Below, piece by piece: positions 1-12,518 of a DNA stretch of 64,000 bases. Origin of the DNA: a virus; IMG/VR virus record IMGVR_UViG_3300035670_000049, positions 56,337 through 120,336 of that record; one strand, written 5' to 3'. A program made the position numbers and the translations under genes. Under the pieces are notes generated by a model. That model saw only the letters and a list, made by a program, of their open reading frames with translations, did no database searches and was not told the DNA's origin. The first letter of the stretch is position 1. Every line of letters begins with the position of its first letter.

Positions 1-355
1 CAATTGCTTGAGATTCTTCATAATGATTATCAAGATAAACTTTATCCAGGTTCATCTCTTCTGCGATAATACTCGCTTCTACCTGAGTAGGATAAACATC
101 CGATACAATCTCACCCTTTGGATCAACAATGACATAGCCGTTGCTATGCTGTTCTGCACGAAATACTTTATGGCCCTTACGTTTATTGCACCATTTATGC
201 GCTAGTGCAATGTTTGTAGAACCTCTACCAACTTTGCCTCCTAATGCCTTGGGTACAATATGATCGCGTGTAGCGTCTGTCAATCTTTGGACTCTATCTC
301 CGCAGATATGACAGATTGCTTTATCACGCTTATAAAGTTGTGCTAATGTGATCAC
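1..355 (-). CDS. HNH endonuclease (partial, runs off left edge)
   Basis: The reading frame opens with GTG at 355 and stays open to position 1, giving 118 codons with no stop inside the window. Visible HNH signatures are a CHIC zinc knuckle near residue 15, DHIVPKALGG near residue 33, and the NIALAHKWCN stretch carrying the second histidine and cysteine. HNH proteins of this size nick or cut DNA, and in phages they often sit beside the terminase and assist packaging. The GTG start overlaps the stop of the Fic gene by four bases (GTGA), so translation is probably coupled. If the window ends join, the frame runs seven more codons and stops eight bases inside the terminase small subunit gene. That link is inference; the HNH motif is seen directly. 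Confidence 0.85.
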   Translation of the reverse strand, partial: MITLAQLYKRDKAICHICGDRVQRLTDATRDHIVPKALGGKVGRGSTNIALAHKWCNKRKGHKVFRAEQHSNGYVIVDPKGEIVSDVYPTQVEASIIAEEMNLDKVYLDNHYEESQAI

Positions 356-936
356 GGATTACTACACCCCCAAAAATTGGGAGGCATAATCGGATTATTG
401 AGTGTACCACAAAGGTAGTTATAGATAATCTTTCCTGTTCTACCATTCCCATCCCTGAATGGATGAATATTCTCATACTCGTAGTAGAACTGATCCTCTG
501 CTGTCTTAGACAGTTTATGGCCTCTTGATCGATGTTCCCAATCTCCAACTACTTGATCAACAACAATAAGCCCTCCACTATAGTAGGCTTCAAGTAGACT
601 GGTAAGTAGATCAGGCACTCGCTCCCAAGATGCCTTTTCAATCCAACCAAGATTTGGATCATCCACTCCAATTGGAATTCTACGAAATCCATTCTTATTT
701 TTGGTGGGCTCAACTAATTGTCCAAGATACTCGATGAACTCAAGATTAATTGGTTGCTGAATTCTATTGTGTGGAAATTCTGCGTTCTCGTCCTTATAAG
801 CATAGGCACAAGTAGGACAATATTCCCACTTCTCTTGCGCCCATTGCCAAGCATTACACATATAGTATACGCTAACTTCACCTGATCCTTGGCGCTCACA
901 TTCCCTAGCGCAATACTCAATGATATCAAGTTCCAT
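352..936 (-). CDS. Fic/Doc-family protein
   Basis: A 194-residue protein with a Fic core motif, HPFRDGNGRTGK, at residues 158-169, close to the C-terminus. Fic enzymes transfer AMP, or less often phosphate or other groups, to protein side chains. The catalytic histidine and the GNGR phosphate loop are intact, but the last motif position, usually arginine, is lysine. I see no clear inhibitory [ST]xxxE[GN] helix and no adjacent antitoxin gene. A C-P-T-C pair lies near residues 40-43. Start chosen at ATG 936, which has GAAAGG eight bases upstream and leaves a 2-bp gap after the deaminase stop; a GTG at 960 would overlap that gene. The target is unknown; host modification or counter-defence are possibilities. 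Confidence 0.8.
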   Translation of the reverse strand: MELDIIEYCARECERQGSGEVSVYYMCNAWQWAQEKWEYCPTCAYAYKDENAEFPHNRIQQPINLEFIEYLGQLVEPTKNKNGFRRIPIGVDDPNLGWIEKASWERVPDLLTSLLEAYYSGGLIVVDQVVGDWEHRSRGHKLSKTAEDQFYYEYENIHPFRDGNGRTGKIIYNYLCGTLNNPIMPPNFWGCSNP

Positions 937-938
937 TA

Positions 939-1340
939 TTAGAACCTTTCTTCCTGCCACATAGGAATAACTAGATCGCTTCGTACAGAGTAAAACATCT
1001 TTCGAAATCCCAACTTCTTCAAGATAGCGTAGCAGTTAGGACATGGATATGAAAGATTTGTTGCTACATTTGTACGAGAGTAATTGATAATTGTTGCTCC
1101 GGTTAGTTTCCTGATACCTACCTTTCTTAGAGCATGAACCTCTGAATGCATTGTCTTATCTAGGGGAAGATCAGTATCATCAGCAATGATAGAACCTCCC
1201 GCAAAATGATTTACACCAGTCCCAATGATTCTTCCTTCCCTATCGAGGATTACCGAAGAATGCATATAGCGTGTGACTTGTGGATCAGTCTTTCCTGCCA
1301 ACTTCTTAGCCACATCAAACGGATCACGATAACGACTCAT
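939..1340 (-). CDS. CMP/dCMP-type deaminase (zinc-dependent)
   Basis: A 133-residue cytidine/deoxycytidylate deaminase-like protein. The zinc ligands and catalytic glutamate are visible: HSE at residues 65-67 and PCPNC at 99-103. These enzymes convert (d)C to (d)U nucleotides, feeding dTTP synthesis or editing. It is distinct from the second, longer dCMP deaminase at 19036-19545. The start overlaps the preceding membrane protein gene by ATGA (1337-1340). Whether the substrate is a free nucleotide or something else cannot be told from sequence. Confidence 0.8.
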   Translation of the reverse strand: MSRYRDPFDVAKKLAGKTDPQVTRYMHSSVILDREGRIIGTGVNHFAGGSIIADDTDLPLDKTMHSEVHALRKVGIRKLTGATIINYSRTNVATNLSYPCPNCYAILKKLGFRKMFYSVRSDLVIPMWQEERF

Positions 1341-1657
1341 ATAGAACCTACAATAGCCGCAAAATTAAATCCTGCTCCAACAATACCGGATGCTGTTGCG
1401 GTAGAGATAGCAACAATCCTTACATTATTGAATTTGGCTGGAACCGGAATTTGAGAACGATATGCAACAAGGAGGGATAGTCCAAGTTTAGCAACAGGGA
1501 TAGCCCAAATTCCTCCAATGGATACTAGAAGTAGAATTAGAAAGTTTTGCTCACTGAATTTTCCTGGTCCAATAAATATATAGAAGATCAAGAATGTCAA
1601 TGCATCCAAAGATTGAGCAAAGACTAGCCTAAATACAAGATTCTTAGGTAGAGTCAT
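1337..1657 (-). CDS. small multi-pass membrane protein
   Basis: A 106-residue, strongly hydrophobic protein with about three membrane segments (roughly residues 10-30, 38-65 and 80-105). The helix-start motif AQSLDALTFLIFYIFIG faintly resembles VUT/YhhQ-type vitamin or queuosine-precursor transporters, but the protein is only about half their length, so I do not assign a transport role. ATG 1657 overlaps the upstream stop by ATGA; a TTG at 1672 is a less likely start. Confidence 0.65.
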   Translation of the reverse strand: MTLPKNLVFRLVFAQSLDALTFLIFYIFIGPGKFSEQNFLILLLVSIGGIWAIPVAKLGLSLLVAYRSQIPVPAKFNNVRIVAISTATASGIVGAGFNFAAIVGSI

Positions 1658-1911
1658 TTCGGTAGATTCCAACTAGCACGGGGATCATTTACAGGATACC
1701 AAGTTACCCAATCGGGAGGGCTAGAGATATCTGCATCAGAGATATCTTCTACAACAGTATCAGGAGGATTAGAACCATAGGGCCAAATCGGCTTCCAAAA
1801 TGCATCGTCATAGTGACAGCAATGTGTATCCCTGCCACATTCACAACAAGGAGGCTCTACTCCCTCACAATCAGGACATACCTTATAAGGAAAATCTGCT
1901 ACTGCAATCAC
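1654..1911 (-). CDS. Cys-rich hypothetical protein
   Basis: An 85-residue protein with an N-terminal cysteine cluster (CPDCEG, then CCECG and CC within residues 12-33) that could bind zinc. An acidic, Trp/Pro-rich C-terminal half follows. GTG start at 1911 is preceded by AGGTG at seven bases. No family recognised; it sits between two genes with overlapping ends. Confidence 0.6.
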   Translation of the reverse strand: MIAVADFPYKVCPDCEGVEPPCCECGRDTHCCHYDDAFWKPIWPYGSNPPDTVVEDISDADISSPPDWVTWYPVNDPRASWNLPK

Positions 1912-1925
1912 TTCTATTCACCTTT

Positions 1926-2195
1926 CTAAAATCTAGGCCAACTAAATGAAATTGAGATTGCGCGACCTTCTCCTAGAAAATATCCTATCGATGCAGTATG
2001 TGCTTGGACATATTCAGGCTCATATCGATAGGATACACTAAGAATACCAATCAAGAGCATACCATCAGCAGTTATACCATCGTGCCCCCAATTTCTTCGG
2101 GATATGAATCCTCGGATACCAAACCGATCAAATGCTCGATGTTTGTACGGATATTCTGCATTGAGTTCTTCCAGTTGTTCAGTAAAATGATCCAC
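1926..2195 (-). CDS. hypothetical protein, first gene after the structured leader
   Basis: An 89-residue protein with no recognised family. The GTG start at 2195 follows a strong AGAAAGGAG site. It is the first gene downstream of the promoter at 2483-2511 and the terminator-ended RNA at 2209-2476, so its expression should depend on readthrough of that terminator. It is therefore the natural target if the RNA is a regulatory leader. Confidence 0.6.
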   Translation of the reverse strand: MDHFTEQLEELNAEYPYKHRAFDRFGIRGFISRRNWGHDGITADGMLLIGILSVSYRYEPEYVQAHTASIGYFLGEGRAISISFSWPRF

Positions 2196-2208
2196 CCTAC
2201 TCCTTTCT

Positions 2209-2243
2209 AAAAAGAATTAGTGACGGATAACCGGAGCCGTCAC
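2209..2243 (-). terminator. Rho-independent terminator closing the leader RNA
   Basis: A 7-bp perfect stem (GTGACGG at 2220-2226 with CCGTCAC at 2237-2243, 10-nt loop) is followed on the minus strand by TAATTCTTTTT. The T-run lies directly before the ribosome-binding site of the gene ending at 1926, the placement expected of a transcription attenuator. Confidence 0.7.
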
Positions 2244-2476
2244 GGAAGCATTCTCTTAGGGTTATTGCTTATCCCGACAAGCATTTATATAGCGACAACT
2301 TTCTTCCGCTTCTCTTGCCCCTATCCCAGCCATTTCTCATGGCAGTAGTCGATAGACTTCTTATATGATGGAGTTACCCTAATCCTACCAATTGGAGGAT
2401 GTATAGGCATCATATAAGTTGGGACACTCACCCAACCTTCGGCAAGAGTATTGCGCTATTTATTTAGGCCATTCCT
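2209..2476 (-). ncRNA. candidate structured RNA / leader with four-way junction
   Basis: About 265 nt without a gene, bounded by a good promoter upstream and a terminator downstream on the minus strand. Stems read directly: P1 8 bp (2441-2448 with 2312-2319) encloses P2 (6 bp, 2418-2423/2431-2436), P3 (10 bp perfect, 2408-2417/2361-2370, continued by ATCCT/AGGAT at 2382-2386/2396-2400) and P4 (CTATC/GATAG at 2321-2325/2351-2355 around GCCAT/ATGGC at 2329-2333/2339-2343). A second domain is closed by CGGAAG/CTTCCG (2243-2248/2303-2308) with an inner 5-bp hairpin, then the terminator. I do not recognise it as any known riboswitch or phage RNA. Confidence 0.6.
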
Positions 2477-2482
2477 AGCCTC

Positions 2483-2511
2483 ATTGTAGCACATATCACA
2501 GGATAAAGCAA
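2483..2511 (-). promoter_or_regulatory. sigma70-like promoter for the structured RNA
   Basis: On the minus strand TTGCTT (2506-2511) and TACAAT (2483-2488) are separated by 17 bp, with an extended -10 TGC. Predicted start is near 2476, just before the structured RNA. Confidence 0.7.
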
Positions 2512-2535
2512 TAAATGTTTTGTGATTTGTGCTAC
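2486..2535. repeat. 15-bp inverted repeat around the RNA promoter
   Basis: GTAGCACATATCACA at 2486-2500 is matched, 14 of 15, by the reverse complement at 2521-2535, with a 20-bp centre containing the -35 box. It could be an operator, or a hairpin at the 3' end of transcripts from the upstream operon. It lacks a T-run, so it is not a standard terminator. Confidence 0.6.
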
Positions 2536-2555
2536 CATGAAACTATGAGCGGTAA

Positions 2556-2801
2556 TTACTCTACTTTGAACTTATCACCGACGCGAGTAATATTTAGATA
2601 GAAGCGTCGATCCCTAGCAGGATCAGGACCAACCACAAACACCATCTTATTCTCAGGCATTTCTGTAATTGGTCCATCATACTCATTACCAAAGAAGGAA
2701 GTTGCCTCCAAAGAAACACCTTCTGGATTAGAGGCAATTGCCTCCTTTACAGCCTTCTTTGATTTAGGACGATTCCAGTTTACCCAAATTCCTTGAGTCA
2801 C
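2556..2801 (-). CDS. hypothetical protein, last gene of the PL operon block
   Basis: An 81-residue basic/hydrophobic protein of unknown function. GTG 2801 was chosen because AGAGGAG lies five bases upstream and it overlaps the stop of the preceding 45-residue gene (GTGA). An upstream TTG at 2840 would read through that gene. It is the last gene before the non-coding block at 2196-2555. Confidence 0.55.
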   Translation of the reverse strand: MTQGIWVNWNRPKSKKAVKEAIASNPEGVSLEATSFFGNEYDGPITEMPENKMVFVVGPDPARDRRFYLNITRVGDKFKVE

Positions 2802-2935
2802 ATCCACTCCTCTGTAAAATCTACGGGACCACCATCCCAATCGATATCTTCGTCGGGTTCCTCTTCATCAATATCTGTATCTGCAATAAATCTATCCTCA
2901 TACGACATTTCTAGCCAAGAGTCATCCCATTCCAT
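2798..2935 (-). CDS. 45-residue acidic mini-protein
   Basis: A short frame with ATG 2935 and TGA 2798 encodes a very acidic, Trp-containing peptide: about a third of residues are D or E, including the run DIDEEEPDEDID near residues 21-32. Both ends overlap neighbours (TGATG upstream, GTGA downstream), which supports real translation in a coupled operon. No family recognised. Such acidic peptides can act as DNA mimics, but nothing here demonstrates that. Confidence 0.6.
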   Translation of the reverse strand: MEWDDSWLEMSYEDRFIADTDIDEEEPDEDIDWDGGPVDFTEEWM

Positions 2936-11052: not shown

Positions 11053-11081
11053 TTGACTTTTTAATAAAAGTATGGTAAGAT
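11053..11081 (+). promoter_or_regulatory. internal early promoter
   Basis: TTGACT (11053-11058), 17-bp spacer, TAAGAT (11076-11081) with extended -10 TGG. It drives the genes from 11102 onward, including the RuvB-like ATPase. Confidence 0.75.
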
Positions 11082-11101: not shown

Positions 11102-11374
11102 ATGCGCACATATTATGACGTAATCAACGGACCAGACCTGTTCGAATACATTAAATCCTTCAACCCTGACCTTGCTTCAAGGATTGATCCGTTTGGCAAG
11201 AGTGTTGTGGCGTTTAGTCTCGTCAATACCACAGATGACAGTATCAGAACACTCATGATGATTAAACTCGTTAATCAGGAGAAGCCTTACGAGACTATTA
11301 TTACATTTCCGATGGACCTATATCAGAAAATCACTAGGAAAGTATGGGCTGATAATGGTACGACACCAAACTAA
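11102..11374 (+). CDS. hypothetical protein
   Basis: A 90-residue alpha/beta protein of unknown function, first gene behind the promoter at 11053-11081, with AGGAG at an appropriate distance. Confidence 0.6.
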   Translation: MRTYYDVINGPDLFEYIKSFNPDLASRIDPFGKSVVAFSLVNTTDDSIRTLMMIKLVNQEKPYETIITFPMDLYQKITRKVWADNGTTPN

Positions 11375-11537: not shown

Positions 11538-11673
11538 ATTAGGCTTTTTTCTCAAACGGTGTAAAAAAGATGGAGGCTATATTGTCTATTTGACGGGCGA
11601 TGACCTACCATATCGGGAGGTTTGCATTGTATTGGAAAATGGAGATACCATTATCCCCATTATAAAAGGATAA
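11464..11673 (+). CDS. SH3-like hypothetical protein
   Basis: A 69-residue protein, beta-rich after residue 10 (GTPVKVSAPSNF, GFFLKRC, GGYIVYLTG, VCIVLENG), consistent with a small barrel. TTG 11464 is the likely start with AGAAAGG nine bases upstream. It ends five bases before the RuvB-like gene. Confidence 0.5.
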   Translation: MQSLETLKEGTPVKVSAPSNFQGFKLGFFLKRCKKDGGYIVYLTGDDLPYREVCIVLENGDTIIPIIKG

Positions 11674-11678
11674 TTCCC

Positions 11679-12518
11679 TTGTCTGCAAATCTGGAGATTT
11701 TTAGTCCCAAAAATTTTGATGAGTACATCGGACAGGATAGGGCAAAGAAAATTGCCAAGGTGATGCTTTCTGCTTCCTCGATGGAGAGAAGGCCCCTACC
11801 AAACATCCTGATTGATGGATCATATGGACTAGGTAAAACCTCTCTTGCGAAAGTTATCTTTAATGAGTTAAAGATTAAGCCCCGCATTATCGATGCATCA
11901 GCGCTTAACAAGATTATCCCACCTATCCTGACTCGTCAGGCTGCGATTATTGACGAGATTCATAACCTTGACCCACAAGTAGCGGACACACTAAATATCC
12001 TGATTGACGAAGGCAAACTTAGTATTATTGGATGCACTACCAATCCGGGTATGCTTCCTGCGCCCTTTAGATCACGATTTAGAAACGTCCATCTTGATCC
12101 TTACACTCAGGACCAGATCAGTAAAATTCTCAGGCTTGCACTTGACCGAAAACTTGTACCGGCACCCGATAGACTAGTCTCAGAGATTTCAAAACGCTCC
12201 AGATTAAATCCCCGCGTTGGATTAAATTATCTGGCGTTTATCTTTGATATAATGACAGTCAGGCATGAAAGCACATTGAGTGAAAGAACAATTAAGGAGG
12301 CGTTTCAAACATTAGGAGTGGATAATAAGGGATTCATTGATCGAGATTATAAGTACATGGAAGCCCTACAGGAAGAACGCCCCGTAGGATTGCAGTATCT
12401 ATCGGCCATGATTGGCGTAGATGCTAAAACTATTGAAACAGAAATTGAACCCTATCTTCTTCAAACTGGGCACATTGATCGAATGCCTAGAGGTAGAATT
12501 AAATTGAAGGAAATTTGA
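11679..12518 (+). CDS. RuvB-like AAA+ ATPase
   Basis: A 279-residue AAA+ protein matching RuvB along its length: FDEYIGQ near the N-terminus, Walker A DGSYGLGKTS about residues 47-55, Walker B AAIIDEIH about 88-95, sensor 1 GCTTNPG about 118-124, PFRSRF arginine finger about 129-134. A C-terminal winged helix carries the RuvB-typical RPVGL, EPYLLQTG and PRGR. Bacterial RuvB drives Holliday junction branch migration with RuvA. No RuvA or RuvC gene is seen here, so it would have to borrow host partners or do another job. TTG 11679 follows AAAGGA at eight bases. Confidence 0.85.
   Translation: MSANLEIFSPKNFDEYIGQDRAKKIAKVMLSASSMERRPLPNILIDGSYGLGKTSLAKVIFNELKIKPRIIDASALNKIIPPILTRQAAIIDEIHNLDPQVADTLNILIDEGKLSIIGCTTNPGMLPAPFRSRFRNVHLDPYTQDQISKILRLALDRKLVPAPDRLVSEISKRSRLNPRVGLNYLAFIFDIMTVRHESTLSERTIKEAFQTLGVDNKGFIDRDYKYMEALQEERPVGLQYLSAMIGVDAKTIETEIEPYLLQTGHIDRMPRGRIKLKEI

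Follow-up and report, generated by a model that had tools for sequence, protein, structure and literature searches.

A stretch of about 360 nt on the minus strand of an uncultivated phage genome, lying between a 94-aa gene and an 89-aa gene, has no supported gene of its own. This raises the question of whether the DNA from 2209 to 2476 encodes a structured RNA and, if it does, whether the RNA controls the genes that follow it or acts elsewhere. The sequence analysed, referred to here as the window, is 64 kb out of a 120,336-bp IMG/VR virus record. Among its long reading frames, one encodes a terminase-like protein and others read as portal and capsid proteins. As discussed below, the minus strand of 2209-2476 almost certainly encodes a real structured RNA, and a four-way junction with a pseudoknot, as drawn here, is very probably its fold. 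The best explanation overall is that the element is a domain of a free-standing phage noncoding RNA that acts in trans (probability about 0.6).

The locus and its relatives

The two genes that flank the RNA are as follows:

2556..2840, minus strand: gene for a 94-aa protein, upstream of the RNA; its orthologs mark the equivalent neighbourhood in G001 and G002
1926..2195, minus strand: gene for an 89-aa protein (orf1926), the first gene downstream, with a GTG start and the SD sequence AAAGGAG at ~2200-2206

The protein encoded by orf1926 has no family match and no relative in the viral contigs searched. The contig G001 was reached through a homolog of the 94-aa protein (78% identity), and the contig G002, which has two tandem copies of the RNA, was added by a pattern scan. 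Both belong to the same phage group as the window, with capsid proteins that are 73-74% identical and terminases that are 65-69% identical. The RNA is known from these three phages, all of them metagenomic. Its neighbourhood is conserved in all three and the downstream genes differ in each; the G001 and G002 copies come after a small zinc-ribbon gene, begin directly behind a gene stop codon, and lie ahead of unrelated genes. In these two phages the RNA domain heads a noncoding stretch of ~640 nt (G001) or ~1.1 kb (G002). The closest relative of the window by capsid protein (85%), G006, has no copy of the RNA in a search of the whole record, and the RNA is therefore not essential.

Comparison of window 1-2555 with G006 69,490-70,979 reveals a hypervariable cassette that extends from the promoter to the HNH gene: the flanking genes are colinear in the two phages, and those in between have no match in G006. 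Homologs of the 94-aa gene in the Streptomyces phages BillNye, Ankus, and DekoNeimoidia (L050-L052) also precede long, repeat-bearing, gene-poor stretches.

The fold of the core

An earlier note on this DNA described a junction in which P1, P2, P3, and P4 meet through GAAG linkers. These stems were confirmed in the analysis, and homologs with compensatory changes, discussed in the next section, bear out the arrangement P1-GAAG-P2-P3-GAAG-P4-P1'. The pseudoknot was absent from that description and was found in the follow-up. The elements of the fold, all on the minus strand, are:

2312..2448: four-way-junction core, identified by fold, covariation, and a covariance model match of 68 bits
2441-2448/2312-2319: P1, CUCUUGCC/GGCAAGAG, 8 bp
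2437-2440: linker GAAG, P1 to P2
2431-2436/2418-2423: P2, GUUGGG/CCCAAC, 6 bp with a 7-nt loop
2426-2429/2371-2374: pseudoknot of L2 (the P2 loop), GAGU, with ACUC, which abuts the P3 3' arm on its 5' side; complementary in 4/4 copies
2408-2417/2361-2370: P3, UUAUAUGAUG/CAUCAUAUAA, 10 bp with further pairs on top
2357-2360: linker GAAG, P3 to P4
2351-2355/2321-2325: P4, CUAUC/GAUAG, enclosing an inner hairpin
2454-2459/2289-2294: P0, proposed outer stem AUAGCG/CGCUAU, from the MFE fold of the window copy
2266..2283: hairpin UGCUUGUCGGGAUAAGCA after P0, from the fold

The AAUGCUUGUCG of the hairpin that follows P0 resembles AAUGCCUAGCG in relatives, a likeness that is suggestive only. Folding of the minus-strand intergenic stretch gives -87.2 kcal/mol (z = -2.9). 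For the core alone the MFE z is -3.9, with one of 200 dinucleotide shuffles folding equally well, and after GC correction the RNA region is 38th in stability among 3192 160-nt windows. Fold energy by itself is not striking, and the decisive support comes from covariation in relatives. A rank of 38 is what might lead one to suspect chance folding of AT-rich intergenic DNA, but this is contradicted by the covariation and the model search in homologs and is extremely improbable.

Homologous copies, covariation, and the pseudoknot

Four copies of the RNA are found in the three phages, one each in the window and G001 and two in tandem in G002 (G002a and G002b). The G001 copy, GGCGAAGGUUAGGUUGGCUAGACCUAAUCUAUUCGAUG...CAUCGAAUAGGAAGCCG, lies ~600 bp downstream of the homolog of the 94-aa gene and keeps the architecture while the letters differ. 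All four copies follow the order P1-4 nt-P2-0-P3-4 nt-P4 with invariant GAAG linkers; the gap from P4 to P1' is 0 nt in G001, G002a, and G002b and a single G in the window copy.

Compensatory changes in P1-P4 across homologs had been named beforehand as a test of the RNA, and they were found. In an alignment of three copies 97.5% of cells are paired and 8 pairs are changed on both sides. With four copies and the pseudoknot included these values are 99.1% and 14 of 27 pairs, in an alignment with manual trimming and anchoring and with N placeholders for the loops, a treatment that favours structure. The covariation is spread over all five helices, including the pseudoknot. None of 500 shuffles equalled the four-copy covariation, and slid controls were 30-52% paired. 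The complementarity of the helices can also be read directly in each copy, independent of the alignment.

The pseudoknot strands are GAGU/ACUC in the window, GGCUA/UAGCC in G001 and G002a, and GGGAUU/AAUCCC in G002b. Strands from differing copies do not cross-pair, the longest cross match being 3. Shuffling of the loops gave a joint chance of ~3e-5 for a pseudoknot in the three differing copies, a value that is somewhat optimistic as the regions were picked post hoc. With 0 nt between P2 and P3 in addition to the loop contact, the predicted L2-P3 pseudoknot must hold P2 and P3 side by side. Coaxial stacking of P2 on P3, which had been proposed from the lack of a gap between them, conflicts with this geometry.

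A custom covariance model search in related phages had also been suggested. The model (R1) was built from three trimmed copies with G002b left out, and it recovered G002b with 40.6 bits (E=2.7e-9) and no other credible match in 1.04 Mb. A search of fourteen whole records revealed no further credible copy, and wider core patterns run on IMG/VR (viral) and GTDB contigs gave no additional credible homolog. At the initial set of loci a strict descriptor had zero false positives. Viral contigs scanned with 16-mers returned chance matches only, and cultivated phage records had no homologous DNA except tRNA genes. Matches to the 'AATGYCTAGCGAGTCGGT' module pattern outside G001 and G002 are unrelated coding DNA, and a candidate near the 94-aa homolog of Streptomyces phage Ankus is an AT-rich chance fold with no support from the model.

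Comparison with known RNAs and the tRNA setting

The RNA had been called undescribed. This agrees with a search of the 4227 Rfam families, in which the element has no credible family match and gave only chance miRNA-type and similar sub-threshold matches at E<=10. The G002 stretch searched at E<=1 gave only a sub-threshold tRNA-Sec match, which falls on a tRNA-like sequence.

The setting of the RNA recalls two phage RNAs. GOLLD is a noncoding RNA of phages and prophages that is found near tRNA islands and has kissing-loop contacts, and its variable regions (linkers) may hold tRNAs (PMC12286853). ROOL is a phage noncoding RNA that is often near tRNA islands, contains pseudoknots, and has no known partner (PMC12286853). 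The G002 noncoding stretch resembles GOLLD in that it also contains a tRNA-like sequence, but the fold differs, and many GOLLD members exceed 800 nt whereas the conserved core in the window is ~140 nt. In five records the GOLLD covariance model RF02032 matched nothing at E<=10. The size and architecture of ROOL are also unlike those of the new RNA; its model RF03087 had no match, with control genomes also silent, and general Rfam searches were likewise without a match. The resemblance to GOLLD and ROOL is therefore one of setting and not of membership, as sequence and structure are unrelated.

Among smaller RNAs, the purine and lysine riboswitches have parallel helices joined by loop contacts. 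The new RNA is similar in that neighbouring junction helices are held side by side through a loop contact, but it differs in its GAAG-linked four-way junction, in having no Rfam match at E<=10, and in the lack of a conserved downstream gene. It resembles tRNA in its four-way junction and in a similar pattern of short and long linkers. The P3 tips of the G002 copies (L041:10680-10700 and 11063-11072) carry the T-loop consensus GTTCRANTC, as though pieces of tRNA had been grafted onto the helix. However, the RNA departs from a tRNA in its stem lengths, loops, and 3' end, and it was not called one by ARAGORN or Rfam.

The phages of this group are rich in tRNAs (~26-30 genes). The remainder of the 120-kb record has ~26 tRNA genes and the window has 0, and G001 has two tRNA genes ~3 kb from the RNA. 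The tRNA-like sequence of G002 (L041:11355-11441) is a duplicate, degenerate tRNA-Tyr-like sequence within the noncoding stretch that is 79% identical to the phage's own tRNA-Tyr. Repeated modules are also present in the relatives, CTAGGATAC...AATGCCTAGCG and GAGTACG...CTCACAATGCGTAYACTG followed by a hairpin (L022:6970-7465; L041:10338-10420, 11230-11345, and 11585-11740), which suggests a larger modular RNA. In G009, a noncoding stretch that is negative in Rfam (L111:2935-3292) has a TTGACA-17-TATAGT promoter and lies just before tRNA-Leu; the hairpin ACGGCTCCGGTTATCCGT is common to this stretch and to window 2223-2246.

Promoter and 3' end

The signals at the two ends of the RNA are:

2483..2511, minus strand: extended -10 sigma70-type promoter, TTGCTT (2506-2511)-17-TACAAT (2483-2488), with TG just upstream of the -10
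2486-2500 and 2521-2535: arms of an operator-like inverted repeat across the promoter, 14/15 bp
2209..2243, minus strand: candidate terminator, weak and non-canonical, made up of the terminal hairpin GUGACGG/CCGUCAC (arms 2237-2243/2220-2226) and the UAAUUCUUUUU after it

The sigma70-like promoter reported in the earlier note is present, with an extended -10 and a predicted start at ~2474-2477. A consensus scan missed it because the -35 matches at only 3/6 positions. In G006 an orthologous promoter, TTGACT-17-TACAAT (G006:69440-69490), occupies the syntenic place with a similar dyad and reads straight into a protein gene. Since G006 keeps the promoter and the dyad there without the RNA, the promoter is credible and predates the present cassette. 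The dyad (window 2486-2535; G006:69435-69483, L088) is kept while the letters of the inner arms differ, and the inverted repeat looks like a candidate operator for a phage regulator. A promoter like that in the window was not found upstream of the G001 or G002 copies, so the RNA of these copies may come from operon transcripts.

The terminator that had been placed just before the ribosome-binding site fared less well. The spacer UAAUUC separates the 7-bp terminal hairpin from UUUUU, AAGAGAAU is a possible pairing partner for the U-run, and the hairpin is not listed in the terminator scan. The terminator is weak, and the transcript may extend into the operon by read-through.

How the RNA may act

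The main rival to action in trans is a leader or attenuator that acts in cis, in which the operon from 2195 to HNH has the RNA as its 5' UTR and the RNA, by switching the terminal hairpin or the SD sequence, would govern either read-through or the translation of orf1926. The promoter, RNA, hairpin, U-run, SD sequence, and gene are contiguous, and the U-run has two alternative partners. Against it, G001 and G002 have no homologous downstream gene, G002 has two copies, there is no canonical terminator, orf1926 is without relatives, and conservation is found in the core and not in the hairpin near the SD sequence. Since the downstream genes differ in each phage, it is unlikely that the RNA is a riboswitch or attenuator dedicated to one gene. 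The earlier note had left the choice between an attenuator for 2195 to HNH and a free noncoding RNA; the unrelated downstream genes, the two G002 copies, and the G006 promoter without the RNA weigh against the former, and the latter is favoured. Action in trans rather than gene-specific control in cis is thus the more probable.

It is still less likely that the RNA serves only in processing or stability, as a folded spacer that protects polycistronic, tRNA-rich transcripts or guides their cleavage. The start of the RNA right after a stop codon in G001 and G002 and the tRNA-Tyr-like sequence in G002 would fit such a spacer, but conserved linkers and a covarying pseudoknot exceed the needs of a simple protective hairpin, and no tRNA lies beside the window copy. 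Variation in copy number (two in G002, none in G006) and the hypervariability of the promoter-to-HNH region are features that a remnant of a selfish or transposable, self-duplicating RNA element might show. Every copy, however, is in one syntenic neighbourhood with no second genomic location, and such an origin is very improbable.

For the trans-acting domain, we infer that transcription would begin near 2475 from the palindromic promoter at 2483-2511 and that the folded RNA would not be the switch of a single downstream gene. It could instead bind, or act as a scaffold for, a phage or host protein, a tRNA, the translation machinery, or another RNA. Because the domain stands at the head of longer noncoding stretches in both relatives, G001 and G002, it would be a conserved domain of a fast-evolving noncoding RNA in this tRNA-rich phage group.

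Implications

The fold of this RNA is well supported, and its function is what we infer. A tentative possibility is that it represents a new class of phage noncoding RNA, with a GAAG-linked, pseudoknot-locked four-way junction that larger RNAs of tRNA-rich phages use as a modular and duplicable domain. The targets of such a class, acting in trans, might be translation, tRNAs, or host defence, and an RNA-only assembly like those of GOLLD and ROOL is a possible mechanism. Large tRNA-rich phages have orphan structured RNAs, and the new RNA adds to these a compact, testable fold of ~140 nt with a covarying pseudoknot. It comes in natural single- and double-copy arrangements, and compared with GOLLD or ROOL it is smaller and more easily probed.
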